Source: a virus. From it: a DNA stretch of 64,000 nt. Under the pieces are notes generated by a model. The model had not been told where the DNA came from. It did no database searches and was given only the letters and a program-made list of their open reading frames with translations. The stretch covers positions 45,676 through 109,675 of the IMG/VR virus record IMGVR_UViG_3300027752_001458. The stretch is one strand, 5' to 3'. A program made the position numbers and the translations under genes. This document shows, one piece after another, positions 5,507 through 55,063 of the stretch. Every line of letters begins with the position of its first letter. Positions within the stretch are counted from its first letter, which is position 1.

Positions 5507-5961
5507 CTATATATTGAACATGGCACACACCGACACCCAGTCTCGCTAATAAAAACGATCCCAGACACAAAGTCAAACTAATAAAGTACAACACATAGGA
5601 CTATGCACCAGCCCCAACCGAGGCCAATATCGGACTCTTCGACAAACCTGAACAAGGTGCGAGAATTAGAGATGCATAGCGGTAAAGATACGACACATAC
5701 GAAAAACTGTATTAGAAGGATGTAGGCACTGAGAAAAAGCAACCTACAAGTTTGTATAACTAAACTCTACAAGGTTATACAAATTTCCGTGAGATGAGAC
5801 GGTAGTGTATGGGGACAGAAAGCTCACTGGTTCCTTTAAGCACCCGAGTTAGAGATGATGATGGCTCATATGATGACAATATGACCGAACAGCTTCTCCT
5901 TGCAATAGGAGAAGTATGACTCCAACTATATGATAACTTTAAATTACTTCTTTAATTTAAA
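5458..5961 (+). ncRNA. Candidate structured non-coding RNA (about 500 nt), new or unrecognised
   Basis: No ORF of useful size occurs here, but the plus strand has many well-paired stems: CTATGCA/TGCATAG enclosing GCACC/GGTGC (about 5584-5678); TGTAGG/CCTACA (5721-5748); a 13-bp stem with one G-U pair at 5748-5760/5774-5786; GTGAG/CTCAC (5789-5793/5823-5827); CATAT/ATATG (5867-5883); a 7-bp CTTCTCC/GGAGAAG hairpin (5893-5914); and a 9-bp A/T hairpin (5938-5961). The motif TTAGAGATG occurs twice (5666, 5849). A perfect sigma70 promoter lies directly upstream. I could not match it to tmRNA, RNase P RNA or group I/II intron cores. Both ends are inferred; no U-tract terminator is seen. Confidence 0.55.
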
Positions 5962-14700: not shown

Positions 14701-15982
14701 AGCCCCAATGCTTCCGTTCATGCTGATAGGCGCATTAGCGGGCCCGGCTATTGAAAAGATAGCACTAGCCACAATGATGTTTAACTTTACTGATATGAAA
14801 AACTTAGCGTTGGCAGGTCCGGCATTAAAATCATTAGGTGAGGGCATGAGTTCATTGAGTGGCGGCTCATTAATGAGCAGTATCAAAGATGGCATTGGCT
14901 CATTGTTCGGTGCAGATAGTCCTATAGAAAAAATAAAAAACTTTATTGAAGGCTTCAAAGGCATTGACTATTCAGGTTTATTCTTTGCATCTGAAGGCTT
15001 ACTACTATTACAGTCATCTATATTAGGCTTGCCTAAAGCATTAGACTTAGCAATGTCATACATGAATGTGCTGGGCGAGCATTTCCTTACTCTTGCAGAC
15101 AGCTCAAGGTCAATAGGCATATTTGGATCTAGGATTGGTCCTTTTGCACAACACATGGAAACACTTGCGATTTCGTTCATGTTATTAGGCGATAGACCGT
15201 TTAGTGCATTTGATGGTGTAGAAGAACAAGCTAAAGGCATGGATATGTTCGCAACATCAACTGAAAGACTTTCCTCGGCACTAGGTAGTATAGAATTCGA
15301 CTATATAGCGGATGGGTTTCAGGAAATCGCTTACAGTATAGAGGACATGGCGGCTGCCATGTCAGATATTAGCATGGGAGACATGCTAAAAATGGGTGCA
15401 ATGAGACTGCTCGGTCCTAGCAAAGAAGAGATTCAAGAGGACGATAAACAAACAGCAGTTAAACATGTTGCAGGAGAGAAACTCCGCGGCACCTTCGGTT
15501 CAGATGAAGGCCTTCAAGGGCTAATGGACAACATATCCATGTCATCCGGTAAGAACACTTACGCCCCAGGAGAAAGTGCTAAAGAACAAATGTTACTCCG
15601 CCTGCCTGAGATAGGTGCGGCAGGTATTGATCTTGATGTTAAAAAAATGCAAAGTAAGGAACTAGGTGTTGCGGCAACGGAAATGCAACGGGTTACAGGA
15701 CTCTTACAATCACAAATTGACATGTACAGGATGCAAGAAAGCTCAGGTGTTATTGTTGCAAAAGACGTTCCTACTACAGCACAACCAGTCAAAGAAGAAT
15801 TGGTAGCTACACCAGGTAAAATATCGCCTAACTCTCCCACAGCAGATAAGAAAAAATTGGAAGAAGCTATTGGCGGCGACATGACACAATCAGAATTACT
15901 TACAGAGTTAGTTAGGTTAACGCAACTTAATAACAACTTGCTCAAGAAAGGCAACAAAATCACTGCTGAAATAGAAGTTTAA
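11750..15982 (+). CDS. Tail tape measure protein (gp29 functional analogue)
   Basis: 1410 residues, TTG start supported by GAGGA 9 nt upstream. Charged helical N terminus (SEKDQKKVTDSAKKTLDELK), then Ala/Gly-rich segments, helical KHGPAAMNMAKNAL-type repeats near 620-680, and a long strongly hydrophobic stretch at about 810-1030 with several membrane-like segments. This is the usual build of phage tape measures, which set tail length and help DNA cross the inner membrane. Tail chaperones gp26/gp51 are encoded divergently. It is much longer than T4 gp29, suggesting a longer tail or extra domains. The C-terminal 300 residues are less repetitive and may be hub-proximal. Confidence 0.8.
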   Translation: MAVSFNLDGQALTFPDWASEATAEQMLDILKGIAKSSGASEKDQKKVTDSAKKTLDELKKGNANDDVTAEDQKKRDEKLLKENKKLGDGFKELGNQLEQYKVDKAFDASFLGTLKASFESEGENVGRAIMTTGEHLYKGAAYVGGAVQQYGAMLGNSILGAGESLNDLAKVGVGFNDTYSGMAETAGLGVAQLAGLTGSFGGAAALISASAKVVATQGFGNFTKSMRFASDISEELGMSLEDSMGVFSESLKSRQMLMNVGNADQGRMNKQIQKSTKMQMAYATAIGVSTEEMSAFVESLTRNNGLLTSSLLRFDDTLRGDVIAGIEVFASGLAGMGGQAGQDIASAFLEAGTAGAIGMSQAATGFVTALPSLAGPMNEFANAMKDGTLTQEQSKDMVNSLTGQLGNLSAGEKDRIYQMARIGDESAKTMANAIAQFEQSEDKLKEVNEKFGTAFNMDAVQKGTNQFNKMMTNISGGASNAFYSLFADPEIMKVIEDGMAEIFAMFGMGVDDLAGSAMDAGGMVKSMVPAVKSFVGFIVDIGKSVAGFFAKFKTDEGFDFGAMFSGIIGKAKSALFTAILTFVGIWLGATVATHYAKTVLGPAIGKFGKELFAKHKGPAMAMAKNALEYTKGMFAKHGPAAMNMAKNALNYSKGLFAGGATTGKNILNNSIAYAKDVFNTSGAKGVASKMSGYASAFGKKIFSGGDKIAKTVASAASSFMGKLTKGGAPDVVGKGVAKAGGLVSSLGAKAKALVPKGLSDKVSGMGGKVSGMLKGASDNADKATMPMGKGGGFLQTIADAVKKFGDSKVLKGAAAIALLGASVGIAGVGLKQFNDVDFASIVKGTLALGGLAALAQVLGKGSMGMIQGAAAIVLLGAAVIPLAFGLSLMKDVGFKTIGVLAAGLLTLGGAAAILSFASPFIIAGSFAIAALGVALGVFGVGMSLVTGPLNEFITGMSNLAEVNGKGLASAAGGVLAVGAAMALLAPMLPFMLIGALAGPAIEKIALATMMFNFTDMKNLALAGPALKSLGEGMSSLSGGSLMSSIKDGIGSLFGADSPIEKIKNFIEGFKGIDYSGLFFASEGLLLLQSSILGLPKALDLAMSYMNVLGEHFLTLADSSRSIGIFGSRIGPFAQHMETLAISFMLLGDRPFSAFDGVEEQAKGMDMFATSTERLSSALGSIEFDYIADGFQEIAYSIEDMAAAMSDISMGDMLKMGAMRLLGPSKEEIQEDDKQTAVKHVAGEKLRGTFGSDEGLQGLMDNISMSSGKNTYAPGESAKEQMLLRLPEIGAAGIDLDVKKMQSKELGVAATEMQRVTGLLQSQIDMYRMQESSGVIVAKDVPTTAQPVKEELVATPGKISPNSPTADKKKLEEAIGGDMTQSELLTELVRLTQLNNNLLKKGNKITAEIEV

Positions 15983-16002
15983 TAAAAACTTTTCCGTTTT
16001 GC

Positions 16003-16031
16003 TTGACATTATTCCTATGAAGTGATAAATA
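16003..16031 (+). promoter_or_regulatory. Promoter of the head module; late motif with a -35-like TTGACA
   Basis: GATAAATA at 16024-16031 is a late motif. TTGACA at 16003-16008 lies 17 nt upstream of TAAATA (16026-16031), so the site could also be read as a weak sigma70 promoter. gp20 starts at 16053 with AGAGGA upstream. Confidence 0.65.
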
Positions 16032-16052
16032 TACACATATAAAGAGGATTTT

Positions 16053-17738
16053 ATGGCTACTTGGCGAAAATATTTTAACAGTGCAAACGGCGGATTACCT
16101 GTAAACGTTACAGGCAACAACACCGACGGATACAGTGCAACACATTCTAGATACAGCAGTTGGCTCCCAGAAGTCTATGCTGGCAGTCCTAACAGGTTAA
16201 TGAGATACATGCAGTATGACCAAATGGACAATGACTTAGAGATTAATGCGGCGCTAGATATTCTAGCAGAATTTTCTACTCAAGAAGATGACACAACTAA
16301 AACTCCGTTTAGATTTAGATTTACTGAAGACCCTAGTGAAACTGAAATGAAAATTTTAAGTAAAACACTAGACCAGTGGAACAACTTAAATGATTTTAGT
16401 CGTAGAGCTTTTAAAATGGTAAGAAGTACATTAAAGTACGGAGACCAATTTTTAATTAGAGATCCTGAAACATACAAGTTATACTGGACTGATCCAGCAA
16501 ACATTGAAAAAGTTATTGTTAACGAAAGTAAAGGCAAGAAAATTGAAACTTACTTTGTTAAAAACTTAGAAGCAAACTTTGAGCAACTAGCGGCAACATC
16601 TGCGGCGGCACTACACTCCAGACCATATGGCGCTGGCGGCGGAATGTTAGCAGGCGGAAACATTGGCACTAGTGCAGGCGCACGAAACGATACAAGTCAA
16701 GGCGCAAGCCAAGGCATGCCTGTTGATGCAACACATGTTGTACAACTAAGTTTAACAGAAGGCATGGACCACAACTGGCCCTTTGGTATTAGTATTCTAG
16801 AACCTGTATTTAAAGTATTCAAGCAAAAAGAATTGCTGGAAGACAGCATTATTATTTACAGAGTGCATAGAGCACCTGAAAGAAGAGTGTTCTTTATTGA
16901 CGTAGGTAATATGCCTCCGCATAAAGCACAACAGTACTTAGAAAAAGTTAAGTACGAAGTACAGCAAAAGCGTGTGCCCAACAAGAATAAAGATGGACAG
17001 AATGTTGCAGATGCGGCATACAATCCAATGAGCATGTTAGAAGATTATTTCTTTGCTCAAACGGCAGACGGCAGAGGTTCGAAAGTTGACACATTACCAG
17101 GTGGTACAAACTTAGGTGAGATTGACGACTTAAAATACTTCAACAATAAACTGTTAAGAGGACTTAGAGTACCAAGCAGTTATTTGCCTACTGGTCCAGA
17201 TGACGGAACAGCACAGCATAACGATGGTAAAGTGGGTGTAGCATACATTCAAGAACACCAGTTTGCAAAGTACTGTCAGCGTCTACAAAGACAAATTATT
17301 AGAAATTTAGATAGAGAATTTAAGATGTATCTAAATTATAAAGGCATCGAAATTGATAACAGTACGTTCAGTGTAGAATTTACTGACCCTCAGAACTTTA
17401 GTAGTTACAGAGAGTTAGACTTAGATACACAAAGAGCTCAACTGTTTACAGGTTTAGAAGCAGTACCATATTTAAGTCAGCAGTTCAAGTTGAAGAAGTA
17501 CTTAGGTCTTTCTGAAGAAGAAATGAGAGACAACGAGCATTACTGGAAACAAGAGAACAAGTATAACACGTCAGGCGCTGGCACTGAAGATGTTGGTTTA
17601 AGAAACGTAGGTGTTAGACCCGGTCCAAGCATGGACTTGGACATTGATGCACCAATAGATGATATTCCTGATCCAGCATTAGATGCAGAAACACCGGATG
17701 TTGATGTTATGCCACCGGTGACTCCAGGGGAACTATAA
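16053..17738 (+). CDS. 20: Portal vertex protein gp20
   Basis: 561 residues, close to the T4 gp20 length (524). Typical portal sequences are visible: YMQYDQMDNDLEINAALDIL (~50-70), FSRRAFKMVRSTLKYGDQFL (~112-132), EDSIIIYRVHRAPERRVFFI (~265), GNMPPHKAQQYLEKVK and LPGGTNLGEIDDLKYFNNKL (~350). The portal is the dodecameric ring at one capsid vertex that nucleates head assembly and passes DNA. An extra Gly/Ala-rich stretch (GGGMLAGGNIGTSAGARND, ~195-215) looks like a flexible insertion. It starts the head operon and abuts the next small gene. Confidence 0.95.
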   Translation: MATWRKYFNSANGGLPVNVTGNNTDGYSATHSRYSSWLPEVYAGSPNRLMRYMQYDQMDNDLEINAALDILAEFSTQEDDTTKTPFRFRFTEDPSETEMKILSKTLDQWNNLNDFSRRAFKMVRSTLKYGDQFLIRDPETYKLYWTDPANIEKVIVNESKGKKIETYFVKNLEANFEQLAATSAAALHSRPYGAGGGMLAGGNIGTSAGARNDTSQGASQGMPVDATHVVQLSLTEGMDHNWPFGISILEPVFKVFKQKELLEDSIIIYRVHRAPERRVFFIDVGNMPPHKAQQYLEKVKYEVQQKRVPNKNKDGQNVADAAYNPMSMLEDYFFAQTADGRGSKVDTLPGGTNLGEIDDLKYFNNKLLRGLRVPSSYLPTGPDDGTAQHNDGKVGVAYIQEHQFAKYCQRLQRQIIRNLDREFKMYLNYKGIEIDNSTFSVEFTDPQNFSSYRELDLDTQRAQLFTGLEAVPYLSQQFKLKKYLGLSEEEMRDNEHYWKQENKYNTSGAGTEDVGLRNVGVRPGPSMDLDIDAPIDDIPDPALDAETPDVDVMPPVTPGEL

Positions 17739-17941
17739 TGAAATTAACAGAATTTTATAATCCGGAAGCAGATAGATCAGCAACAAGAGACTTTGACGAT
17801 ACTCGTAAAACTAAACTTACTTTACTATCTCTTAATAAATTAAGAAAGTACAGAGAGTTAAAGAAGAAAGAGAATATCGAACAGGCAGAGTTTGCATCTA
17901 TTATGTATTCCAAAGCACAAGAATCAGACGCGGCCCTATAA
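17738..17941 (+). CDS. Small basic protein in the head operon (possible gp67-like prohead core)
   Basis: 67 residues starting one base into the gp20 stop (TAATG). Helical and charged (TKLTLLSLNKLRKYRELKKK, then NIEQAEFASIMYSKAQ). In T4 the small core protein gp67 follows gp20, and this gene has the same place and size class, but gp67 is strongly acidic and I see no shared motif. The position supports a prohead or core role; the name is not secure. Confidence 0.6.
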   Translation: MKLTEFYNPEADRSATRDFDDTRKTKLTLLSLNKLRKYRELKKKENIEQAEFASIMYSKAQESDAAL

Positions 17942-18805
17942 ATGAAATTAGCTGTTGTAGGCTGTAGCTGGTCTAGCCGAGATGTAGATTATCCTGATGT
18001 GGAATTTGGCAAGTTAGTAGCAGACTATTACGATGCTGAATACATTAACATGGGAAAGCCTGCATGTAGTAACCCAGGTATAGCACTCCAAATAGATTAC
18101 ATCCTCGATGGTCACATGGGCCCACTACCTGACTTAGTATTGATCAATGCTACCACAGTAACCAGAACAGAACTTAAACTAAACAGTAAACGCAGATTTG
18201 ATCCTAAAGCAAGTTGGGATAATGTGCAGTTCAACATGATGTTTGGAGAGAAGCTTAGAGACATACATGCACCTGGGTACGGCAAAGGATACGATCCTAG
18301 TATTGTAATAGACAGTTTCTCTACTATATTTGGTGAGGACATGCAGAAGTCGTTCGGCGAAGCATACTTCCATCCTAGATACGAAGATGCATTTACACCA
18401 AAGTCATATGAAGCAATGAAAAAATGGTTTTTATACTTCTTTGACGCTGACTTAGAAAGATATAAACAGCAAATGATACTGCTTGGTTCCTGCTTAAAAC
18501 TAAAAAAGAAAGGTGTTAAATTTATCTTTTGTCCTAATACATTTGACTGGGCCGAAGACTTATACTTACAAAAAGACAAGCCTAGTACTGAAAATCCAGA
18601 GAAATCAGTGACATGGGAAGTGCTAGAAAATAGCGAACTACTATGGTCAGGCATTGCAGAATCTTTATGGTTAGAAAATGAAATTTACGGCAGTTATGAA
18701 AAGAGTCCAGGCAGTTATATGGACAATCACTTGCCAGTAGAATGCCATATGGACTTTGCTTACAAAGTTATATCACATGTAAATCAGCATGGATTGGCTA
18801 AATAA
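17942..18805 (+). CDS. SGNH/GDSL-hydrolase-like protein inserted in head operon
   Basis: 287 residues, start adjacent to the previous stop (TAAATG). The N-terminal VVGCSWSS (residues 4-11) resembles block I of SGNH hydrolases (GDSxS, here GCSWS). LVLINATTVTR (~60-70) fits the block III Asn region, and DNHLPVECHMDFA (~263-275) the C-terminal D-x-x-H block. The fold class would be an esterase, acyltransferase or glycan deacetylase, but the catalytic Ser is uncertain and the substrate unknown. T4 has no such gene between gp20 and the core genes, so it is an accessory insertion in a conserved operon. Confidence 0.5.
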   Translation: MKLAVVGCSWSSRDVDYPDVEFGKLVADYYDAEYINMGKPACSNPGIALQIDYILDGHMGPLPDLVLINATTVTRTELKLNSKRRFDPKASWDNVQFNMMFGEKLRDIHAPGYGKGYDPSIVIDSFSTIFGEDMQKSFGEAYFHPRYEDAFTPKSYEAMKKWFLYFFDADLERYKQQMILLGSCLKLKKKGVKFIFCPNTFDWAEDLYLQKDKPSTENPEKSVTWEVLENSELLWSGIAESLWLENEIYGSYEKSPGSYMDNHLPVECHMDFAYKVISHVNQHGLAK

Positions 18806-18982
18806 ACGTATATACAAAAACATCAGATACTCACATCAAACGCAAAAATGGTTCAAAAAAGCCTGCTTTGCAAACAAAAACACATCTTTTAATAAGTAAA
18901 CATACATTATATTGTGTATAGTCGTTTGACTGTCTATGCATAATCATTTAAATGAAAACTTTTTTATTATTAGGAGCTCATA

Positions 18983-19756
18983 ATGTCAGAACGCAGTAAA
19001 TTAGAACAGGTCTTAGAATTCCTACTTGCGGAAGATAACGAGCGTGCCGAAGAGCTACTTCACGAATATGTCGTTGAAACTGCTCGTCAAGAGTACGAAC
19101 GTATATTGGACGAAGATGAAGTAGAAGCTAAAGACGAAGACGAAGCTGATTTAGACGAATCAGAAGAAACTGAAGAAGAAGCAGTCGAAGAAACTATTGA
19201 TCAAGCTGATCCTGAAAACGATTTTATTACAGATGTTGAAGAAACAGATGACGAAATTGAATCAGACGAAGTTGGTGAAATGGAATTAGACGGAGAAGGT
19301 GAAGAGGGCGAAGGAGAAGAGGAAGAGTTAGAAGACAAAGTCGACGAACTTGAATCAGAACTAGAAGACCTAAGAGCTGAATTTGAAAAATTACTTTCAG
19401 GTGACGACTCAGGTGACGAAGAAATTGAAGGCGACATGGAACCAGAAATGGGAATGGAACCAGAAATGGAAGAAGAATCCGTTGAATACGATTTAGACGA
19501 AGAAGTAGCAGAAGACGATGACGAAGTTGTCGAAGAAGCAACTAAACTTCAAGACGCAGTAGCGGCACCAAAAGGTGGCGATGCAGGCGAAGGTGAATCA
19601 CCATTCAGCAAACAGCCAAAAAGCACAACAGTAAGCGGACCAAACGGTGGCGGAAGCCCAGTTAAGTCTACAGACGGTGGCGAAGGTAACAAAGGCGAAG
19701 GCGCTAAAGTTAACCCAACTACTGACAACATTAAAGTTGAGCCTAAAACGGCGTAA
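18983..19756 (+). CDS. Acidic prohead core protein (gp68-like)
   Basis: 257 residues. The first 45 (EQVLEFLLAEDNERAEELLH, then EYVVETARQEYERIL) resemble the N-terminal helical part of prohead core proteins gp67/gp68 of T4-like phages. The middle (50-190) is extremely Glu/Asp-rich and includes a coiled coil (LEDKVDELESELEDLRAEFE). The tail is Gly/Lys-rich and flexible. Prohead core proteins fill the capsid interior and are cut by gp21 during maturation. It sits directly before the gp21 protease, matching T4 order. The ribosome site TTAGGAGC precedes the ATG. Confidence 0.7.
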   Translation: MSERSKLEQVLEFLLAEDNERAEELLHEYVVETARQEYERILDEDEVEAKDEDEADLDESEETEEEAVEETIDQADPENDFITDVEETDDEIESDEVGEMELDGEGEEGEGEEEELEDKVDELESELEDLRAEFEKLLSGDDSGDEEIEGDMEPEMGMEPEMEEESVEYDLDEEVAEDDDEVVEEATKLQDAVAAPKGGDAGEGESPFSKQPKSTTVSGPNGGGSPVKSTDGGEGNKGEGAKVNPTTDNIKVEPKTA

Positions 19757-44128: not shown

Positions 44129-44157
44129 TTGACAAATACTTTGATAACTATTATACT
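44129..44157 (+). promoter_or_regulatory. Sigma70 promoter of the tRNA operon
   Basis: TTGACA at 44129-44134, 17-nt spacer, TATACT at 44152-44157. tRNA-Ser begins at 44172, so the transcript start lies a few bases before it. Confidence 0.85.
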
Positions 44158-44171
44158 GTATAAGTAATTTC

Positions 44172-44261
44172 GGAGAGTTGGCTGAGTGGTCGAAAGTACC
44201 TCCCTGCTAAGGAGGCGTCTGGGTAACTGGACCGAGGGTTCGAATCCCTCACTCTCCGCCA
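44172..44261 (+). tRNA. tRNA-Ser(GCT)
   Basis: A 90-nt class II tRNA. Acceptor GGAGAGT pairs with ACTCTCC, discriminator G and encoded CCA; anticodon loop CTGCTAA gives GCT, reading AGC/AGT. A long variable arm (TCTGGGTAACTGGACC region) identifies serine. T loop GGTTCGAATCC is canonical. Confidence 0.95.
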
Positions 44262-44306: not shown

Positions 44307-44381
44307 GCGAGTATAGTATAACGGTTATTACAAGACGTTGCCAACGTTTGGATATCGGTTCGATTCCGATTACCCGCTCCA
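44307..44381 (+). tRNA. tRNA-Gly(GCC)
   Basis: 75 nt. Anticodon loop TTGCCAA gives GCC (GGC/GGT). Acceptor GCGAGTA with TACCCGC pairs except an A-C mismatch at the fourth pair; discriminator T and encoded CCA fit bacterial tRNA-Gly. T arm CGGTTCGATTCCG is good. The D arm is short. Confidence 0.88.
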
Positions 44382-44431: not shown

Positions 44432-44674
44432 ATGGTTAATGCAATAACAACCAAAAAAGTAAGTAAGGCAACAACACCAGCAGTGTTAAAAAGAAAAGAA
44501 ATCGTAGATATTGATTTTGACTTTTCTAAGATTGGTGAGAATGTCCAGAAGAACGCAGAACAGATTAGCAAGAACCTTATGAGGAATGCTGAAATGATCG
44601 GTGAAAATGTTAAAAGAAACTCAGCGAGAGTTGGCGATAACATGAAGAAATACTTAAATAGAAATATTAAGTAA
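44432..44674 (+). CDS. Small basic coiled protein between tRNAs
   Basis: 80 residues, AGGAAGG ribosome site 6 nt upstream. After a basic start (TTKKVSKATTPAVLKRKE) it has near-repeats of IGENVQKNAEQISKNLMR, MIGENVKRNSARVGDNMK: an amphipathic helix with an 11- to 15-residue period, reminiscent of LEA- or phasin-like helices. It sits between tRNA-Gly and tRNA-Ala in the sigma70-driven operon, so early. Function unknown; nucleic acid or membrane surface binding is possible. Confidence 0.65.
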   Translation: MVNAITTKKVSKATTPAVLKRKEIVDIDFDFSKIGENVQKNAEQISKNLMRNAEMIGENVKRNSARVGDNMKKYLNRNIK

Positions 44675-44688
44675 GCAAGAAAATATCT

Positions 44689-44764
44689 GGGGCTGTAGCT
44701 CAGTTGGGAGAGCGGTTCCCTTGCACGGAACAGGTCGTAGGTTCGATCCCTATCAGCTCCACCA
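44689..44764 (+). tRNA. tRNA-Ala(TGC)
   Basis: 76 nt. Acceptor GGGGCTG with CAGCTCC (one G-T), discriminator A, encoded CCA. D arm GCTCAGTTGGGAGAGC, anticodon loop CTTGCAC gives TGC (GCN), T arm GTAGGTTCGATCCCTAT. A textbook structure. Confidence 0.97.
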
Positions 44765-44790
44765 GGTATTTTACATCACAAGGATTAAGA

Positions 44791-45516
44791 ATGTATACAG
44801 AAAAAGTTACATGGGTACATCATTGGACAGACAAGACCTTCAGCTTTAAAACAACACGCAACCAGAGTTTTCGATTCATAAACGGCGAGTTTGCTATGAT
44901 TGGATTAAAAGGCGAAGAGGAAGGATCTCGACCATTGCTTAGAGCATATAGCATTGCTAGTGCTAACTATGAAGACGAAATCGAGTTCCTAAGTATTAAG
45001 GTACCGGATGGACCTCTAACAAGCCGTCTACAGCATTTAAAAGTCGGAGACGAAATAGTAGTAATGCCTAAGACAACGGGCACTCTAACGATTGATAACG
45101 TAACCTCAGCGAAGAATCTGTATTTGCTTTCAACAGGAACAGGTCTTGCTCCGTTTTTAAGTATTATTAGAGATCCCGGCACTTACGAAAAGTTTGAAAA
45201 CGTTATTGTAGTACACACCACTCGAACACATGCTGAACATACATACACTGACTTGATGGTAGAGTTAGCAGAAACATTTTCATTTACATATTACGATACT
45301 TGCACCCAAGAAGATTATGTGCGTAAAGGACGTTTTTGGGAACATGTAGAACACTTTACTGACAACGGATTCAATAAAGACACTGACAGGGTTATGGTTT
45401 GTGGCGGCCCAGAGATGAATTATCAATGTAGAGACTACTTTGAAGGTAACGGATTTATAGAAGGAAACTTGGGCGAACCAAATGACTTTGTATTAGAACG
45501 TGCATTCGTAGACTAG
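44791..45516 (+). CDS. fpr: Ferredoxin/flavodoxin-NADP+ reductase
   Basis: 241 residues from ATG 44791 (AAGGAT upstream; the longer open frame runs into tRNA-Ala). FAD motif R51-A-Y-S, NADP motif LLSTGTGLAPFLS (112-124) and VMVCGGPEMN (~207-216) with the C-terminal VLERAFVD ending, the alphaproteobacterial FPR type. It moves electrons between NADPH and ferredoxin or flavodoxin. In E. coli Fpr with flavodoxin reduces radical SAM enzymes, and three radical SAM genes start 48 nt downstream. Probably acquired from an alphaproteobacterial host, which is inference. Confidence 0.92.
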   Translation: MYTEKVTWVHHWTDKTFSFKTTRNQSFRFINGEFAMIGLKGEEEGSRPLLRAYSIASANYEDEIEFLSIKVPDGPLTSRLQHLKVGDEIVVMPKTTGTLTIDNVTSAKNLYLLSTGTGLAPFLSIIRDPGTYEKFENVIVVHTTRTHAEHTYTDLMVELAETFSFTYYDTCTQEDYVRKGRFWEHVEHFTDNGFNKDTDRVMVCGGPEMNYQCRDYFEGNGFIEGNLGEPNDFVLERAFVD

Positions 45517-45550
45517 CCGCCGTAACAACATTCAAGCCTTTGTAAAAAAC

Positions 45551-45558
45551 AATAAATA
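45551..45558 (+). promoter_or_regulatory. Late promoter motif, leaderless geometry, radical SAM operon
   Basis: AATAAATA then CATGT then ATG (45564). The 5-nt gap puts +1 on the start codon; no ribosome site. Confidence 0.6.
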
Positions 45559-45563
45559 CATGT

Positions 45564-47414
45564 ATGTCAAAAATAAATCCGTTTAAAGACTTTGAAGTCA
45601 CTAACCACACACCAGTAGATTTTATTATACTTACAGACCCATACGGACTGTATAATGCACAGAACTGGGGCACACACATGCAGGCAGTGTTCAAGATGAC
45701 TGGGCAGGAGCTTGATCCTGATGTTGCTAGAGCACTACAGACTCGCAAAACAGACGACTCGTATAGTCCTAATGCTATATCTCATTCCCGTGGCCCGTCA
45801 AATTCTTACCATTTACGAACATTGGGTGCATATAAAGTTGCACATGAATGTAGGTTACGTGGATACACTGTACAAGTTGTAGATTACCAAAGTTTTTATG
45901 ATTTAGAAACGTTAAAACGAATTATGGACAAGTATGTAGGCAAAAACACATTGGCAATCGGCATATCGGTATCATTCTACATGCGATATCCTTGGATGTT
46001 GAATATGGTGACAAAAGAAATGCCTGTATTGCCACTTGAAGGCGTAAAAGATGAAGGCAAAATATTTGACGACTGGACTCTTAACTATTCCGGCTTCTTA
46101 ACACACGGTGAAGAGATTGATGATGCCTTTGTTAACTATGTAAAAGACATTAACCCTAATGTAAAGTTTATTAAAGGCGGAACTAGAGCAAGAGAAGATA
46201 TAGTTCACCGGAATGTCGACTACATAAATGTGGGCTGGGGCGATGTGACTATGCCGGAGATGCTTGATGAAATAAAAGCAGGCACGTCTGACGATATGCC
46301 AGTTCACACTAAGCACCCTTACAAGTTAGACCTGCTCAGTAAGTTAGCAATGGAGCACAGTACCATGAAATTTACAAAGTCAGATTTGTTATTCCCTGGC
46401 GAACTGATGCCACTTGAGTCCGGACGAGGTTGTATTTTTAAATGTACATTTTGTAGTCTTGAATTAGTTGGTAAAGAGAAAGGCACATACATTAAGTCAG
46501 AAGAAAGCATCAGACAAGAATTTATACACAATTACGAAGAACATGGCATAAAAGATTACTGGTTTGTCGAAGATACTTTCAACGATGACCATGACAAAAT
46601 GATACACTTGCATGAGATTATTACTAGTTTACCATTTAAAATTACGTTCTCATGTTATTTAAGATTAGATTTACTTTTCATTGGCAACAAACATAACCCT
46701 CCACAGCATCAGCTACTACTAGAGATGGGATTGAAGCGAGTGGAGTTCGGTATTGAGACGACTAACCATGACAGTGGAAAGGATATCGGCAAAGGATTGA
46801 ATCCACAAATACAATTACAATTTTTAAGAGACTTAAAAGCGGATCACGGTTGGAAAGATATTTTAATCGGGTCAGGTTTTATTATGGGTCTACCTAGCGA
46901 CACAAAGGAAAGTATCCAAGAAATGTTTAAGATAATGAGTCGAGATGATTTCCCAGTAGACAGACCTACAATTAGGTCATTGCACATTAGACCTGAAGAA
47001 ACAGGTAACAATGCTATTGAGGAACGTGGGCTTAGTGAATTTTCCAAGAATTGGGAAGAGCATGGGTACACTATGTCGTACGACAACCAGCATGGCATAT
47101 TTAAAACTTGGACAAATAGAAATGGTGTGTCTTTAGAGATGTGTGAAAAAATGCTATTGAATTATTTTAGACGCCACGACTTCAAACCGTTTAAGTCCGC
47201 CAAAGCTCAACAAATGAACATGGCAATATTAGCCACAATAGGCGTTGCAGAATTAGTGGCCCAAGGATTGCATTGGCCCACAGTTAGTGAAGACATCAAA
47301 TTCGATCTATTAGAATTCGAGCAAACAAATCCTAAACACACAAAACAGTTATCAGAAATACAAGCACTGAAGTTCTTAAAGTATACTGAATTACTACTGA
47401 CACAGGATCTATAG
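45564..47414 (+). CDS. B12-binding-like radical SAM protein 1
   Basis: 616 residues. The N-terminal ~230 residues have a Rossmann/B12-binding-like layout (VAHECRLRGYTVQVVDYQSF, then YINVGWGDVTMPEML) but lack the DxHxxG cobalamin motif. The radical SAM core has the cluster motif C290-IFK-C294-TF-C297 in a GRGC context, then WFVEDTFNDDHDKM and EFGIETTN typical of the TIM barrel in B12-radical SAM (PF04055/Elp3-like) enzymes. It could be a methylase, cyclase or P-methylase-like enzyme; substrate unknown. First of three tandem paralogues, close to copy 3. Confidence 0.85.
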   Translation: MSKINPFKDFEVTNHTPVDFIILTDPYGLYNAQNWGTHMQAVFKMTGQELDPDVARALQTRKTDDSYSPNAISHSRGPSNSYHLRTLGAYKVAHECRLRGYTVQVVDYQSFYDLETLKRIMDKYVGKNTLAIGISVSFYMRYPWMLNMVTKEMPVLPLEGVKDEGKIFDDWTLNYSGFLTHGEEIDDAFVNYVKDINPNVKFIKGGTRAREDIVHRNVDYINVGWGDVTMPEMLDEIKAGTSDDMPVHTKHPYKLDLLSKLAMEHSTMKFTKSDLLFPGELMPLESGRGCIFKCTFCSLELVGKEKGTYIKSEESIRQEFIHNYEEHGIKDYWFVEDTFNDDHDKMIHLHEIITSLPFKITFSCYLRLDLLFIGNKHNPPQHQLLLEMGLKRVEFGIETTNHDSGKDIGKGLNPQIQLQFLRDLKADHGWKDILIGSGFIMGLPSDTKESIQEMFKIMSRDDFPVDRPTIRSLHIRPEETGNNAIEERGLSEFSKNWEEHGYTMSYDNQHGIFKTWTNRNGVSLEMCEKMLLNYFRRHDFKPFKSAKAQQMNMAILATIGVAELVAQGLHWPTVSEDIKFDLLEFEQTNPKHTKQLSEIQALKFLKYTELLLTQDL

Positions 47415-49204
47415 TGGCATTATCTAGGCTAAATCCGTTTAAAGACTTCAAAGTTACCAATCACACACCAATGAATTTTATTATATTCACTGATCCTATT
47501 GGCGCAAACAGTCTAGCACAAACGTACACAGATGTTAACGTGTTGCTGTTACACAACGGCAAACACCCATGGGAAGTATCTAGAGACATACTATCTAACC
47601 CAACTGCTACACGCCCACACGCATTTAATGCTCGTTACCAACATAAGGCGTTAGGTGCCTATAAACTTGCACACGAATGTAGGCTTGCCGGCTTCACGGT
47701 ACAAGTAGTTGACAATACATCAGCGATGGATGTTGAAACATTAAAACGTGTTGTAGACAAGTATGTCGGAGAAGAGACATTGGCAATGGGCAAGTCAAAT
47801 ACATTTAGTGTAAAAATGCCCTGGACTCTAAATGCATTACCCATCGAATACCCATTTGTGCCTTTAGATGGAGCAACTGATTTAGATAAACTGTTCAATC
47901 CATTTCCCGGAGCAAAGGATCACGGGTTCTTACCTCACGGAAAGGAATTGGATGATGAATTTGTAAACTATGTAAAAGGTATTAACCCTAATGTAAAATT
48001 TATAACGGGCGGGGCGTTTACAAGAGAGGATGCCGAGTATAGTAATACTGATTTTATAAATGTAGGCTGGGGAGATGTAACATTGCCCGGGTTACTAACA
48101 AGATTGCGAGATGGCACAGCAAATGAACTGCCGGTACACACGAAACATCCTTATACATTGGATACTATAAGTAAAATTGAGATGGAACACTCGTCAATGG
48201 AGTTTATTCAATCGGATGTAGTAATACAAGGCGAACCTTTACCGCTTGAGACTGCTAGAGGGTGTATATTTAAGTGTAAGTTTTGCAACTTTGGACTATT
48301 AGGAAAAGAAAAAGGCTCGTACTTTAAGAGTTGTGAAAATATTAAAGCAGAAATTGAGCATAATTATTATGAACTTGGCGTTACTGATTACTGGATAGTC
48401 GAAGACACGTTCAACGATGACCACGAGAAGATAATTAGGCTACATGAGATTATTACGAACTTGCCTTTCAAAATTCAGTTTACTTGCTACTTGAGATTAG
48501 ATTTACTGTATGCTAACAGGAATCAACCAGTACCACAGCACCAGTTATTATTAGAGATGGGGCTGAAACATGTAGAGTTTGGCATTGAAACAACAAATCC
48601 GGAGAGTGCAAAGGACATTGGCAAAGGACTGCACCCAGAAATACAATTTTCCTTTCTTAGAGAACTACGAGACAAGCATGGCTGGGAGGATATGGTTCTG
48701 TCATCGGGCTTTATTGTAGGACTACCCAGCGACACAATAGAGTCACTCGCTAAAATGAGTAAGTTTCTTCTTAGCACAAACACTGTGTTAGATAGGATAG
48801 CAATACGACCACTTCGACTTGATCCAGTAACATTGAACCCGGCTCTTGACAGTCGCGACAGTAGTGAGTTTTCTCGTAACTGGCAGGACTACGGATACAC
48901 GTTAATTGGAACTAATACCGGCGGCTCACCTAATTATATAAACAAGAACGGATTAACATTAGCAGACTGCGAGAAGTTTTGCAAAAATATTAATATTCGT
49001 TCAGAAGGTCGCCTACAATCACTGTTTGAAGTAGAGTTAAAAGCAAAAGGACTCGCTTTCCCTACGATAACTGCCTTACAATTTTCACCAGGTGAATGGG
49101 ATGGATCAAAAAAGCATCAGCAACGACTTACTGAAATGCAACGTAGTAAGATACTGCATTACATCAAAACTTTGCTGACACAGGATATTAATTATGAAAC
49201 TTAA
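47414..49204 (+). CDS. B12-binding-like radical SAM protein 2 (divergent copy)
   Basis: 596 residues, GTG start overlapping the stop of copy 1 (TAGTG). Same two-domain build. Cluster motif C284-IFK-C288-KF-C291 in ARGC context, WIVEDTFNDDHEKI and EFGIETTNPES. It differs from copies 1 and 3 in the N-terminal domain (IFTDPIGANSLAQTYTDVNV) and in the C-terminal 100 residues, so it probably acts on another substrate or step. No DxHxxG. Overlaps copy 3 by 11 nt, so all three should be translated together. Confidence 0.85.
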   Translation: MALSRLNPFKDFKVTNHTPMNFIIFTDPIGANSLAQTYTDVNVLLLHNGKHPWEVSRDILSNPTATRPHAFNARYQHKALGAYKLAHECRLAGFTVQVVDNTSAMDVETLKRVVDKYVGEETLAMGKSNTFSVKMPWTLNALPIEYPFVPLDGATDLDKLFNPFPGAKDHGFLPHGKELDDEFVNYVKGINPNVKFITGGAFTREDAEYSNTDFINVGWGDVTLPGLLTRLRDGTANELPVHTKHPYTLDTISKIEMEHSSMEFIQSDVVIQGEPLPLETARGCIFKCKFCNFGLLGKEKGSYFKSCENIKAEIEHNYYELGVTDYWIVEDTFNDDHEKIIRLHEIITNLPFKIQFTCYLRLDLLYANRNQPVPQHQLLLEMGLKHVEFGIETTNPESAKDIGKGLHPEIQFSFLRELRDKHGWEDMVLSSGFIVGLPSDTIESLAKMSKFLLSTNTVLDRIAIRPLRLDPVTLNPALDSRDSSEFSRNWQDYGYTLIGTNTGGSPNYINKNGLTLADCEKFCKNINIRSEGRLQSLFEVELKAKGLAFPTITALQFSPGEWDGSKKHQQRLTEMQRSKILHYIKTLLTQDINYET

Positions 49205-51029
49205 TCCGTTTAAAGACTTTGAAGTCACTAACCACACACCCGTAGACTTTATTATACTCACAGATCCAGCTGGACTATACAATGCACAGAACTATAATGT
49301 GCTTATGCACAAGATGGCATCAACACAAGGGCAAGAACCAGACCCGGACATATCTAAATCATTAATGACACGAAAATTGGACCCAGACTACGACCCACTT
49401 GCCGTACATCACTCACAAAGTAAGTGTAATTCACTTTATCTTAAAACAATGGGTGCATATAAAGTTGCACATGAATGTAGATTGCGTGGGTATACAGTAC
49501 AAGTGGTAGATTATCAGAGCTTCTACGATATAGAAACATTGAAACGTATTGCAGACAAGTATGTCGGAGAGAACACACTCGCTATAGGTATTTCAATATC
49601 ATTTTATATGCGGTATCCTTGGATGTTAAACATGTTGCCCAAGGAAATGCCAGCCTTGCCACTTGAAGGCATAAAGGATTTAGGTAAAATATACGATGAC
49701 CCATTGTATGCGTACCAAGGTTTCCTAACACATGGTGAAGAAATAGATGATGCTTTCACAAGTTATGTAAAAAGTATTAATCCTGACGTAAAGTTTGTAA
49801 AAGGCGGAACTAGGGCTAGAGAAGATGTTGAATTAAAGAATGTCGACTACATAAATGTGGGTTGGGGCGATGTGACTATGCCTGACATGTTAGATGAGAT
49901 GAAAAACCACACAGCAGACGATATGCCAGTTCATACTACACACCCTTATAAGTTAGATTTACTTAGCCAGTTAGAAATGAAGCACAGTACCATGAAATTT
50001 ATAAAGTCTGATATATTGATACCCGGAGAGATAGTACCGTTAGAGTCGGCAAGGGGTTGTATATTTAAATGTTCGTTCTGTAGTTTTGAATTAACCGGTA
50101 AAGAAAAAGGCACATACTATAAGTCTGCAGAGAACATTAAACAAGAGTTCATTGATAACTATGAACAGCATGGCATATCGGATTATTGGTTTGTAGAGGA
50201 TACATTCAATGATGACCACGCAAAAATGATACACTTGCATGAAATTATTACTAACTTGCCCTTCAAGATTACATTCTCATGTTATTTAAGATTAGATATG
50301 CTGTGGGTTAACCGTAATCAGGACGTACCACAACACCAATTACTCATAGAGATGGGGTTGAAACGTGCAGAGTTTGGAGTTGAAACAACAAATCCGGAGA
50401 GTGCAAAAGATATCGGCAAAGGATTGAATCCAGCACTGCAAATGTCCTTCCTTAGAGACTTAAAAGATAATCATGGCTGGAAAGACATAGTAACCGGCTC
50501 AGGTTTTATTCTAGGATTGCCCAGTGACACAAAGGAAAGTATACAAGAGACGTTTAAGATATTAAGTAGCGATGAATTTCCAATAGACAGACCTACGTTG
50601 CGAGTTTTACATATTGCACCTGAAGAAATGCACAATAAGGATATTGAGGAACGTGGTCTTAGCGAATTTTCTAAAAATTGGAAGGCACACGGGTACACAA
50701 TGTCCGGAGAGTTGCATAACGGTGTGTTTAAAACCTGGACAAATAGAAATGGCGTGTCATTAGCTATGTGTGAAAAAATGATATTGAATTATTTTAGACG
50801 TAAAGGCATGAAGCCGTACAAAGATAATGGCATGACCTCGATACTAGACACCATAGGGATAGTAGAATTAGTAGCACAAGGATTACATTGGCCCACAATT
50901 AGTGAAGATGTTAAATGGGCACCAAAAGAATTTCATCAAGGCATACCTGAGCATACGCAACAGTTAGCCCAACTACAAGCATTGAAGTTTCTAAAATACA
51001 CAGAATTATTACTGACACAGGATATATAG
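49194..51029 (+). CDS. B12-binding-like radical SAM protein 3
   Basis: 611 residues, ATG inside the end of copy 2. Closely related to copy 1 along the whole length (NPFKDFEVTNHTPVDFIILT, then MRYPWMLNMLPKEMPALPLE, WFVEDTFNDDHAKM, and ending LKFLKYTELLLTQDI). Cluster Cys at 289, 293 and 296. The 5' ends of copies 1 and 3 are nearly identical in DNA too (38 nt without mismatch from AATCCG). A duplicate with either the same or a subtly different substrate. Four nt precede the hot-dog gene. Confidence 0.85.
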   Translation: MKLNPFKDFEVTNHTPVDFIILTDPAGLYNAQNYNVLMHKMASTQGQEPDPDISKSLMTRKLDPDYDPLAVHHSQSKCNSLYLKTMGAYKVAHECRLRGYTVQVVDYQSFYDIETLKRIADKYVGENTLAIGISISFYMRYPWMLNMLPKEMPALPLEGIKDLGKIYDDPLYAYQGFLTHGEEIDDAFTSYVKSINPDVKFVKGGTRAREDVELKNVDYINVGWGDVTMPDMLDEMKNHTADDMPVHTTHPYKLDLLSQLEMKHSTMKFIKSDILIPGEIVPLESARGCIFKCSFCSFELTGKEKGTYYKSAENIKQEFIDNYEQHGISDYWFVEDTFNDDHAKMIHLHEIITNLPFKITFSCYLRLDMLWVNRNQDVPQHQLLIEMGLKRAEFGVETTNPESAKDIGKGLNPALQMSFLRDLKDNHGWKDIVTGSGFILGLPSDTKESIQETFKILSSDEFPIDRPTLRVLHIAPEEMHNKDIEERGLSEFSKNWKAHGYTMSGELHNGVFKTWTNRNGVSLAMCEKMILNYFRRKGMKPYKDNGMTSILDTIGIVELVAQGLHWPTISEDVKWAPKEFHQGIPEHTQQLAQLQALKFLKYTELLLTQDI

Positions 51030-51033
51030 TTAC

Positions 51034-51456
51034 ATGAACCTACCCCATGCTCACCCTATACTGTTAATTGACAGCCACGAAATAGGCCCCGGCCCAGTTG
51101 TTAAAGCCACATACACAGTTCCGTTAGATCACCCAGTACTTGAGGGACACTTCCCACACATCAAGATATGGCCAGGTGTTTATATGATAGAAGGTATGAA
51201 TCAAACAGCAGGACTCCATGCATTGAATACTGCGAAAGAACAGTTTGGTGATGTTGACCTTTCAAAGATAGTGACATTTGTTACTAGTATAGACAAAGTA
51301 AAATTTAGACAGCCTGTCTTCCCTGGCGACATACTCACTTACACTGCTGAATTAGTAGCAAAGAAGCGTTCACACTTGTTTTATGAGTGTGTAACATACA
51401 AAGATGCAGTTAGAGTATCACAGGCAACCATCGGTTTAACAGCAAAAGCACTTTAA
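51034..51456 (+). CDS. FabZ/FabA-like hot-dog dehydratase
   Basis: 140 residues. The FabZ-type catalytic signature is intact: PHAHPILLIDS at the N terminus, then EGHFPHIKIWPGVYMIEGMN with His39 (GHFP) and Glu53 at the expected spacing, and VKFRQPVFPGDIL at ~88-100. FabZ dehydrates 3-hydroxyacyl-ACP; related hot-dog proteins act on other acyl thioesters. It is the last gene of the radical SAM operon, so an acyl or lipid-like substrate is a reasonable guess for that pathway. No promoter of its own. Confidence 0.88.
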   Translation: MNLPHAHPILLIDSHEIGPGPVVKATYTVPLDHPVLEGHFPHIKIWPGVYMIEGMNQTAGLHALNTAKEQFGDVDLSKIVTFVTSIDKVKFRQPVFPGDILTYTAELVAKKRSHLFYECVTYKDAVRVSQATIGLTAKAL

Positions 51457-51502: not shown

Positions 51503-51531
51503 TTGACACAGGATTTATTTTAAGTTATACT
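51503..51531 (+). promoter_or_regulatory. Sigma70 promoter for 386-aa unknown gene
   Basis: TTGACA at 51503-51508, 17-nt spacer, TATACT at 51526-51531; ATG at 51570. Early transcription expected in the middle of late genes. Confidence 0.82.
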
Positions 51532-53527: not shown

Positions 53528-54364
53528 ATGAACAACTGTTTTTGTGAACTTCCAGACTTAGACAATCCGTTCACTGTAGACGATATACTGTGTGAAGAAG
53601 ATCTAGAACTTATACACAACTACTCCTCAAAATCAAACTTAGGTGCTAACAAAGTACAGTGGCACGATTCAACTTCAGATTTTTACTCCGGCAAAGAACT
53701 TAAACAAAACTTTAGCGGTGTAGGTTACATCACTGACAAGAAAGTTATGCGTATGATGAATGAGTTTGTTAGGGATAATTTTCCAGACGAGTTTATTAAA
53801 AGTATGTGGTCAACTGGCATGGGACATAAATTTTTCCCTTGCACACTATTAGCATGGAACGATCCGTCGGATTGGCATTGTGAAGGATTACAGTATCCAG
53901 CACACCACGATCCTATAATGACTGAACAACGTTACAGCACAGTTTGTAATTTTAGATTGATCGGCGATCCAATTAATTCCCAAATACTATTTGCAGACGG
54001 TGATGATGAATTACAACAAGCAACTGAAGAAATCGTCACAGATTATATCACAAAAGAAGTGACAGGCACAAGTTCAAAAAATATATTTAGTAACATTAAG
54101 CCTAGGTCTTATACAGCAGACGGCAGTTTAATGACAAGTAGTCCCAATGATTATTTCTGCAAGCCAGAAGTTTGGGAACCTCATTTAACACAGGTAGCAG
54201 TAAAAGAGGGTTTCGATAATCCTTTCTTACTTAACTTAGCAAAGTGGCACAAAGTAAAAATACAAGACAATACCCCAAGAGTAACACTACGACTAATGGC
54301 TGAAAAGGACATTCCGTTCAGTACATGGGAAAAAATGGTTGACAACGGCACCTTTTTAAAGTAA
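53528..54364 (+). CDS. 2OG-Fe(II) oxygenase-like protein
   Basis: 278 residues. TVCNFRLIGDPINSQILFAD and NLAKWHKVKIQDNTPRVTLR resemble the strand-ligand-strand arrangement of 2OG oxygenases, with distal His (KWHKV) and Arg (PRVTLRL) in the usual 8-12 residue relation. The first His-x-Asp is less clear (DWHCEG or HHD in AHHDPIM). The family resembles prolyl/asparaginyl hydroxylase-like proteins of marine phages. Six nt after gp13, no promoter of its own. Third oxygenase-like gene in the window. Confidence 0.5.
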   Translation: MNNCFCELPDLDNPFTVDDILCEEDLELIHNYSSKSNLGANKVQWHDSTSDFYSGKELKQNFSGVGYITDKKVMRMMNEFVRDNFPDEFIKSMWSTGMGHKFFPCTLLAWNDPSDWHCEGLQYPAHHDPIMTEQRYSTVCNFRLIGDPINSQILFADGDDELQQATEEIVTDYITKEVTGTSSKNIFSNIKPRSYTADGSLMTSSPNDYFCKPEVWEPHLTQVAVKEGFDNPFLLNLAKWHKVKIQDNTPRVTLRLMAEKDIPFSTWEKMVDNGTFLK

Positions 54365-54394: not shown

Positions 54395-55063
54395 ATGAGT
54401 AATTTAATAGGCATCTGCGGCTTTATCGGAAGTGGCAAAGACACTGTGGCAAAAATGTTCGTAGAACAGGGTTGTGTACAGGATAGTTTTGCGGCACCGT
54501 TAAAGGATATGTGTTCTAGCATCTTTGGCTGGGACAGAGACCTGCTGGAAGGTGATACAACACACAGCAGAGAGTTCAGAGAAACTACTGATTTATATTG
54601 GACTAGTAAACTTGGTATTGATAAATTTACTCCTAGACTAGCACTTCAGTTGTTAGGCACAGATATTATTCGCACACACTTTAGTCAAGACATGTGGTTA
54701 AACAGTTTAGAATACAGAATACGAAAACAGCGACAAGAAGAGATATGTGTCGTAGTTAGCGATGCTAGGTTTAAAAACGAACTTAACCTAATTAAAGACT
54801 TGGGCGGAGTTGTAATACATGTAAAACGTACTGAGTTACCTGAATGGTATGACTCTGCAGTTTGGGCCAACAACGGTAGTATAATTGCACATAAGACAAT
54901 GGAAACTAAATACAGTCATGTACATGCTAGTGAATGGAAATGGGTAGGCTATGAGTTTGACTATGAAATTGAGAACACTGGCACTTTATCTGACCTAGAA
55001 GCATCTGTACTTAAAATATGTGTAGACTTAGAAAATAATACCGATATCCAAGTTAGTAAATAA
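54395..55063 (+). CDS. 1: Deoxynucleoside monophosphate kinase (gp1-like)
   Basis: 222 residues. P-loop GFIGSGKDT (9-17) at the N terminus, FAAPLKDMCSSIFGWDRDLL (nucleotide-base region), PRLALQLLGTDIIRTHFSQD and VVVSDARFKNELNLIKDLGG, matching the T4 gp1 dNMP kinase family (241 aa). It phosphorylates dGMP, dTMP and modified dCMP to feed phage DNA synthesis. Sits between gp13 and the sheath gene, preceded by a late-type motif rather than an early promoter, which is unusual for a nucleotide metabolism gene. Confidence 0.9.
   Translation: MSNLIGICGFIGSGKDTVAKMFVEQGCVQDSFAAPLKDMCSSIFGWDRDLLEGDTTHSREFRETTDLYWTSKLGIDKFTPRLALQLLGTDIIRTHFSQDMWLNSLEYRIRKQRQEEICVVVSDARFKNELNLIKDLGGVVIHVKRTELPEWYDSAVWANNGSIIAHKTMETKYSHVHASEWKWVGYEFDYEIENTGTLSDLEASVLKICVDLENNTDIQVSK

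Follow-up and report, generated by a model that had tools for sequence, protein, structure and literature searches.

What might a phage do with a reductase, three radical S-adenosylmethionine (SAM) enzymes and a fatty-acid dehydratase encoded side by side? The question is raised by positions 44,791–51,456 of the stretch of DNA analysed here (the window), 64,000 nucleotides (nt) corresponding to positions 45,676–109,675 of the 109,675-bp virus record IMGVR_UViG_3300027752_001458 (record G000). The block comprises the genes of a ferredoxin/flavodoxin-NADP(+) reductase of the Fpr type (FNR), three overlapping radical SAM paralogues (rSAM1, rSAM2 and rSAM3) and a FabZ-like 3-hydroxyacyl-ACP dehydratase (ACP, acyl carrier protein). 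It is regarded here, with moderate confidence, as a putative phage acyl-chain tailoring operon, in which electrons would pass from FNR via a host carrier to the rSAM proteins. To judge from related loci, it would probably allow the phage to remodel the fatty acids of its host cell. The tail sheath of this marine phage is nearest to those of Pseudomonas phage PA5oct and its relatives in the public phage collection (43.9%), and the window was therefore assigned to a jumbo-type myovirus.

The five genes are real and located on the plus strand at the positions given in the initial annotation: FNR, 241 amino acids (aa), 44791–45516; rSAM1, 616 aa, 45564–47414, with the cluster motif CIFKCTFC; rSAM2, 596 aa, 47414–49204; rSAM3, 611 aa, 49194–51029; and the FabZ-like protein, 140 aa, 51034–51456. 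The spacings are 47, −1, −11 and +4 nt (overlaps of 1 nt between rSAM1 and rSAM2 and of 11 nt between rSAM2 and rSAM3), in agreement with the mutual overlaps and the 4 nt before FabZ previously reported; only the distance between FNR and rSAM1, given as 48 nt, had to be corrected to 47 nt. FNR starts at the ATG at 44791, preceded 6 nt upstream by AAGGA (44780–44784); the mechanical open reading frame (ORF) begins earlier, at a TTG inside the tRNA-Ala gene. A tandem-repeat artefact was looked for at the locus and none was found.

FNR matched PDB entry 6rr3 over its full length (E 1e-71, residues 4–241), its nearest solved relatives being bacterial ferredoxin-NADP reductases. Both of its domains, NAD_binding_1 (PF00175) and FAD_binding_6 (PF00970), were above the Pfam cut-off, and its RAYS and TGTG segments were invariant across 31 distinct phage FNRs. 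The suggestion that a bacterial Fpr-type reductase is the electron source is likely to be correct. The FabZ-like protein was positive for the FabA-like hot-dog domain PF07977 (63 bits, cut-off 23; E 2.5e-17) and matched the FabZ structure 6ihc (E 4e-18) with the active-site His and Glu in register; the intactness of these residues, already proposed, was confirmed by the invariance of GHFPH and EGM in 28 distinct phage copies. FNR reached 123.8 bits against a cut-off of 390 for NCBIfam PRK10926 (ferredoxin--NADP(+) reductase), and the FabZ-like protein was below both NCBIfam FabZ equivalog cut-offs (94.1 bits for a cut-off of 113, 90.4 bits for one of 155). Because both proteins miss these cut-offs, "Fpr-type" and "FabZ-like" are the proper labels. 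Matches of FNR and FabZ in INPHARED were all below 60% identity, and no PHROGs family was matched by any of the five operon proteins.

All three rSAM proteins contain the Radical_SAM domain PF04055 (49–53 bits, cut-off 29.5; E 2e-13, 5e-14 and 8e-13 for rSAM1, rSAM2 and rSAM3, respectively). Identity to rSAM1 is 52% for rSAM2 and 74% for rSAM3. The motif CX3CX2C was invariant in 31 of 31 aligned family members, and its three Cys were the only invariant ones. The best NCBIfam match of the three proteins was TIGR04072 (67.6, 63.9 and 71.0 bits, cut-off 360), and lower scores were obtained with HpnJ (TIGR03471, 45–60 bits, cut-off 577.6) and PhpK (TIGR04479, 40–55 bits, cut-off 600). No NCBIfam family takes the three proteins of the window above its cut-off; they do not fall, therefore, in a well-described family of other activity, a placement that would have told against the initial annotation, and the family is not named by the libraries used. 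TIGR04072, named "lipid biosynthesis B12-binding/radical SAM protein" (rSAM_ladder_B12), shares a predicted B12-type domain and the radical SAM barrel, and it is its name that provides the lipid context; the window proteins differ from it in scoring far below the cut-off, with an alignment that spans about half of the model. The hopanoid enzyme HpnJ and the PhpK-type P-methyltransferases are the same kind of radical SAM protein, but their substrates are not indicated for the window proteins.

Three parts can be distinguished in the AF2 model of rSAM3 (mean pLDDT 76.6, pTM 0.82, residues 28–85 of low confidence): a predicted Rossmann domain, a TIM barrel and a C-terminal region. Among the best matches of this model in the PDB (Z 15–17) were RimO, AprD4, TsrM, MiaB, OxsB, MgmA and CysS. 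The solved class-B enzymes TsrM, OxsB, AprD4, TokK, CysS and MgmA match the whole chain in fold (Z 13–17), but at 10–16% identity, and AprD4 shares the fold yet is named a diol dehydratase. Pfam B12-binding scored 20–23 bits in rSAM2 and rSAM3, under its cut-off of 32.1, and was not listed for rSAM1. The modelled N-terminal domain alone resembled cobalamin domains (TokK, Z 8.7; TsrM, 8.5; MtaC, 8.2; MetH, 8.0) and tied with unrelated folds (AdiA, Z 8.8; solute-binding and repressor proteins, 8.1–8.4). In the model, this fold is thus of the B12 type but is also like unrelated Rossmann-like domains. Cobalamin use had been doubted for lack of DxHxxG; since the solved class-B radical SAM enzymes are not known to depend on this motif, its absence does not decide the matter.

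The family is large, mainly found in phages, and combines a predicted B12-type Rossmann domain with a TIM barrel. The profile scan yielded at least 588 viral stretches with rSAM relatives, the best 80 of which were kept, and a second scan with a shorter form of 500–540 aa yielded at least 531. Long and short forms are one family (profile-profile probability 100%, E 3e-117, 482 columns). Among bacteria and archaea, scanned with one genome per species, 61 loci were obtained. Six of them were strong (L087–L092, at least 206 bits); the remainder, where profile-scored at E ≤1e-10, showed 41–143 bits and look like generic B12-type radical SAM proteins. L087 and L089 are short contigs of metagenome-assembled genomes and may be of phage origin. 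In INPHARED no match to rSAM3 was obtained at E 1e-5, matches in 28 plasmid records were partial and weak, and one unnamed PHROGs family was matched by 6 of 25 short-form members.

To determine the conservation of the block, viral contigs were scanned with rSAM3, FabZ and FNR. Among the 79 loci obtained, FNR and FabZ were present together in 59, which reduce to 26 distinct loci when grouped by the sequence of FNR, the copy number and the spacing; near-copies (e.g., L045 and L050) were counted apart, and several loci share one contig. Three loci of a single contig (L009, L014 and L077) were near-identical to the window. Between FNR and FabZ, three rSAM genes were present in one distinct locus, two in seven, one in 15 and none in three. 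In 23 of the 26, the arrangement was FNR, one to three rSAM genes and FabZ, with no other plus-strand ORF of at least 60 aa inside and gaps from −44 to +104 nt. The view of the block as one operon is upheld by this order, and the survey of phages proposed earlier gave an occurrence that is not scattered. On the other hand, the three paralogues, which had been highlighted as unusual, are the top of a range from zero to three, so that the number of copies is not in itself the notable feature. In locus L031, with no rSAM gene between them, FNR and FabZ are 6.6 kb apart. This locus, from another phage lineage, has FNR and FabZ amid genes that by reading are queE-like, GMP-reductase-like and glutaredoxin-like.

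Identity was mostly 74–100% for FNR, most phages differing from one another at the level of 74–88% (55% in L031 and 49% in L081); between clades it was mostly 55–68% for FabZ and about 30–45% for the rSAM proteins. FNR is therefore the most conserved and the rSAM proteins the least, so that FNR and FabZ form a constant frame and the rSAM genes the variable part. The tree of the rSAM proteins of these loci contained two old types, of 18 and 13 sequences. rSAM2 branches before the split between rSAM1 and rSAM3, each of which pairs with an rSAM copy of the relative L041, a locus with two such copies. Against L041, which has no orthologue of rSAM2, dN/dS was 0.05–0.08 for FNR, for rSAM3, for FabZ and for the gene that follows it; rSAM1, with dS saturated, gave a pN/pS of 0.21. 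Purifying selection acts on the genes in this comparison.

Acyl chains, suggested initially as a conceivable substrate, are backed as the likely one by the desaturase, ACP, ketosynthase and AcpS genes that adjoin family members. In 75 rSAM clusters (70% identity), the commonest neighbour family was membrane fatty-acid desaturase, present within three genes in 21 clusters; these desaturases have three His boxes, with the His invariant in the alignment. A desaturase gene was located directly 5', on the same strand and with a gap of at most 50 nt, in 10 of 63 phage clusters (the 75 minus five FNR-locus and seven genome-collection rows; 5' side only), while the figure for genes drawn at random from these loci was 1.03 on average and at most 5 in 5000 draws. 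For either side, same strand, the count was 11 of 75 against a random mean of 2.9 (maximum 9 in 2000). The upstream junctions were mostly −4 to +9 nt, with one of −52 nt. In reciprocal scans, one desaturase query gave a desaturase directly before an rSAM gene in 6 of 22 loci (four distinct arrangements, one being the contig of the query itself), and the other gave the pair in 0 of 10; a strong rSAM relative was present somewhere in 7 of the 22 desaturase records.

Further lipid genes were observed in several of these records. In L224 (IMG/VR), a ketosynthase, two ACPs, FabZ, AcpS, a short-chain dehydrogenase/reductase (SDR) and three desaturases are encoded beside the rSAM gene; L273 (IMG/VR) has the same kinds of genes, some of which were assigned by reading only or from their likeness to L224. 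In G046, a record of 193 kb, rSAM, desaturase, ACP and ketosynthase genes occur together. In the genome collection, the rSAM gene of a Bdellovibrionales contig (L091) has genes for an ACP, an SDR and two desaturases nearby, and in L088 and L092 the rSAM gene is part of non-ribosomal peptide synthetase (NRPS) clusters; carrier-bound substrates therefore recur. In the phage locus L219 (3300042484_002676), eight desaturase-like genes surround one rSAM gene.

Within the phage group of the window, desaturases were detected in 2 of 45 records, ACP in 2 of 45 and ketosynthase in 2 of 14, each time only in G035 (339.8 kb) and G037 (216.8 kb). These are the two longest relatives and nearly the same phage; they carry FNR and FabZ in the arrangement without rSAM genes. 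The 65.7-kb record G050, whose tail sheath is 86% identical to that of the window (66% for G035), carries at one end two desaturase genes whose His boxes are complete. Its other end was compared with the window and eight chosen loci. Over 678–680 bp it overlaps terminal or internal stretches of four of them, with DNA identities of 98.2% (L005), 97.4% (L006), 96.2% (L007) and 95.0% (L008), against 84.9% with the window and 72% with the rSAM-less L061; L024 gave no match. L005, L006 and L008 have two rSAM genes between FNR and FabZ, and L007, which begins within rSAM1, also has rSAM3. On the basis of this overlap of contig ends, which is not continuous sequence, and of the sheath identity, G050 is most likely a member of the clade with rSAM genes, where desaturases would then most likely lie about 65 kb downstream of FabZ (64.6 kb in G035). 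One protein of each desaturase pair (L297:9700-10509 and L339:927-1751) gave no Pfam match in hmmscan; both have the three His boxes, and of these two the one in G035 scored over the cut-off in a separate search.

Other genes of this group were recorded by reading. A conserved jumbo-phage block (L297, L302–L311) has the order nrdA, nrdB, an 87-aa PAAR-like protein, a 380-aa protein, a 318-aa protein and two desaturases; the 318-aa protein, which has no Pfam match, recalls the ATP-PPase-like neighbours of rSAM genes. G035 also has an apparent suf-type Fe-S assembly operon (L299, about 14,400–19,600), which would help to mature radical SAM proteins.

In the mechanism proposed for the acyl-chain tailoring operon, electrons from NADPH would pass via FNR to a ferredoxin or flavodoxin of the host, and this carrier, once reduced, would in turn reduce the rSAM [4Fe-4S] cluster. 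The rSAM proteins would split SAM, and the radical formed would alter an unactivated carbon of a carrier- or lipid-bound acyl chain. SAM could be supplied by the SAM synthetase of the phage itself; a MetK gene with three Pfam domains is present in G000, outside the window (L011:2256-3356). Two further radical SAM genes, of twitch type by reading and with Radical_SAM just under the cut-off, flank MetK (G000 3–1700 and 3960–5603, in L011), with an SDR adjoining. FabZ would dehydrate 3-hydroxyacyl-ACP, leaving a chain that could be extended or kept unsaturated, and would thus supply or shape the acyl-ACP pool. The two desaturases of this phage group, about 65 kb downstream, probably use the same FNR electrons, and this sharing would explain the persistence of FNR and FabZ where rSAM genes are absent. 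Each of the three paralogues may serve a position, chain length or step of its own. Methylation, cyclisation, C–C coupling and dehydrogenation are candidate reactions, among which sequence alone cannot name one; the data do not go as far as defining a product for the probable new pathway of the initial annotation.

Several data weigh against the proposal of an acyl-chain tailoring operon. In two loci without any rSAM gene, FNR and FabZ are adjacent, 12 and 19 nt apart, so that neither depends on the rSAM proteins. G000 gave no desaturase, ACP or ketosynthase match in a record that extends only 12.5 kb downstream of FabZ, and no desaturase was present in 33 of 54 family loci, within the stretch fetched. 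ATP-PPase-like, GNAT-like and 2OG-oxygenase-like genes are also neighbours and suggest other chemistry. TIGR04072, HpnJ and PhpK were each matched at E ≤1e-3 by 31 of 31 long-form and 25 of 25 short-form members, and the best E-value family-wide was that of PhpK, a P-methyltransferase family, ahead of the lipid-labelled families; for this reason the protein sequences by themselves do not single out lipids. As electron carrier, 2Fe-2S ferredoxin (PF00111) and flavodoxin (PF00258) were over the cut-off in none of 17 records, 4Fe-4S ferredoxins not being included in the search, and the single weak PF00258 match falls inside an rSAM reading frame; the link from FNR to the rSAM proteins is therefore one that we infer.

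Among other explanations, the substrate of the rSAM proteins may be a small molecule bound to a carrier (specialised metabolite or signal) rather than a membrane lipid, with FabZ and ACP serving that assembly line. This is fairly unlikely but is the most serious of the alternatives. The bacterial L088 and L092 are consistent with it, the rSAM gene of L088 being directly behind an ORF with a peptidyl carrier protein (PCP) domain, as are the frequent ATP-PPase-like, GNAT-like and 2OG-oxygenase-like neighbours and, according to their structure titles, the pantetheinyl substrates of the like-folded class-B enzymes TokK and CysS. However, membrane desaturases work on acyl-CoA, acyl-ACP or lipid chains, and reading of phage loci by eye, which was no systematic search, brought up no NRPS or polyketide synthase (PKS) module. 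Modification of a host-surface or virion component, such as lipopolysaccharide (LPS) or a tail fibre, by cassettes drawn from the hypervariable host-recognition pool of marine myophages appears improbable: in this phage group the rSAM genes keep one place, flanked by FNR and FabZ, and are not hypervariable in position, and neither FabZ nor FNR has an obvious part in glycan or protein modification. It would fit the location of the block within the structural-gene region, the glycosyltransferase-like genes (by reading) and two other radical SAM genes near the far end of G000, and the radical SAM cassettes reported inside the host-recognition cluster of pelagimyophages (PMC7029224).

It is quite improbable that the genes lack any functional link, with FNR and FabZ as separate auxiliary genes and the rSAM genes as cargo inserted between them; FNR might in that case serve, for instance, a queE-type enzyme or the ferredoxin pools of the host. 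Loci of the L061 and L075 types, without rSAM, the FNR and FabZ of L031, well separated and near a queE-like gene, and the better conservation of FNR than of the rSAM proteins all agree with such a view, but the same three-gene order, with its overlaps and short gaps, is kept across deeply diverged rSAM types, and CX3CX2C is retained in all 31 aligned copies. Least probable by far, scarcely to be expected, is that the rSAM proteins are tRNA or ribosomal-protein methylthiotransferases of the MiaB/RimO type. The best structural matches include MiaB and RimO (Z 16–17), and three tRNA genes lie just upstream; methylthiotransferases of this type, however, carry a second cluster, for which they have three Cys near the N terminus, and the candidate was rejected since the 31 sequences contain no invariant Cys beyond CX3CX2C. 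RimO was also the sole methylthiotransferase model listed for the window proteins, with 18.7 and 26.2 bits against 357.

With respect to the surroundings of the block, which is situated within the structural-gene region of the phage, three tRNA genes were detected by ARAGORN on the plus strand: tRNA-Ser (gct) at 44172–44261, tRNA-Gly (gcc) at 44307–44381 and tRNA-Ala (tgc) at 44689–44764, the last ending 26 nt 5' of the FNR start. They are preceded, at 44129–44157 on the same strand, by a promoter-like, sigma-70-like site, TTGACA-17-TATACT (11 of 12 consensus bases), and a second exact copy at 51503–51531, also on the plus strand, is placed between FabZ and the next gene and precedes structural genes. 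These are the only two exact copies in the window; promoter-like sites overall were not enriched there (32, against 26.4 in shuffles, sd 5.1), and both sites are consensus matches only. The tRNA, FNR, rSAM and FabZ genes would form one transcription unit bounded by the two sites, the second of which suggests that the unit of the rSAM genes has its 3' end at FabZ. An 80-aa ORF with a repeated lysine- and asparagine-rich pattern is located between tRNA genes (44432–44674). A deoxynucleotide monophosphate kinase (54395–55063, PF21448) adjoins the tail sheath, and a 278-aa protein without Pfam match is encoded at 53528–54364; relatives L054, L060 and L067 hold up to five tandem diverged copies of the latter near a head-tail adaptor.

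Separately, the components of the block have precedents. An acyl-CoA desaturase (PMC7678222), fabG/F/Z and desC auxiliary metabolic genes (AMGs) (PMC10653327), fabF with a stearoyl-CoA desaturase in freshwater pelagimyophages (PMC7029224) and ACPs (PMC5463345) have been described in phages; the sections of these reports available here share the desaturase, FabZ, FabF or ACP genes with the present system and contain neither a tie between radical SAM and desaturase genes nor an FNR-rSAM-FabZ operon. Twelve radical SAM genes were found in a marine T4-like genome (PMC5332604), and radical SAM and methionine adenosyltransferase genes in a Baikal phage population, for which PQQ synthesis was proposed (PMC7678222). 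These phages have in common with G000 the many radical SAM genes or their combination with SAM synthesis, and no lipid function is proposed in the corresponding extracts. Among open-licence PMC papers, as far as their accessible passages go, none was found that joins phage radical SAM genes to desaturases or FabZ in one system. To the extent of these sources, phage desaturases, fab genes, ACPs and radical-SAM-rich phages are each known, while the coupled FNR-rSAM-FabZ operon is new. Phage lipid genes, which the literature found lists singly, are here coupled as an auxiliary metabolic module.

Tentatively, and with less likelihood than the acyl-chain tailoring itself, a wider role may be considered. 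A dedicated phage radical SAM family, together with desaturases and pieces of type II fatty-acid synthesis (FabZ, ketosynthase, ACP and AcpS), might install acyl structures foreign to the host, for example methyl-branched, cyclised or cross-linked chains, with the tandem paralogues as successive or position-specific steps; the product would be a virus-made lipid. Cyanophages reportedly also encode lipid desaturases, according to Roitman et al. Few radical SAM enzymes are known to act on unactivated acyl carbons, and phage enzymes of this kind would be of interest for lipid chemistry. If the acyl-chain tailoring proposed here is correct, the anonymous radical SAM genes of at least 588 viral stretches would acquire a testable hypothesis, the remodelling of fatty acids by radical chemistry driven by the phage's own reductase, and if the product is a lipid absent from the host, it could mark infected cells in the sea.

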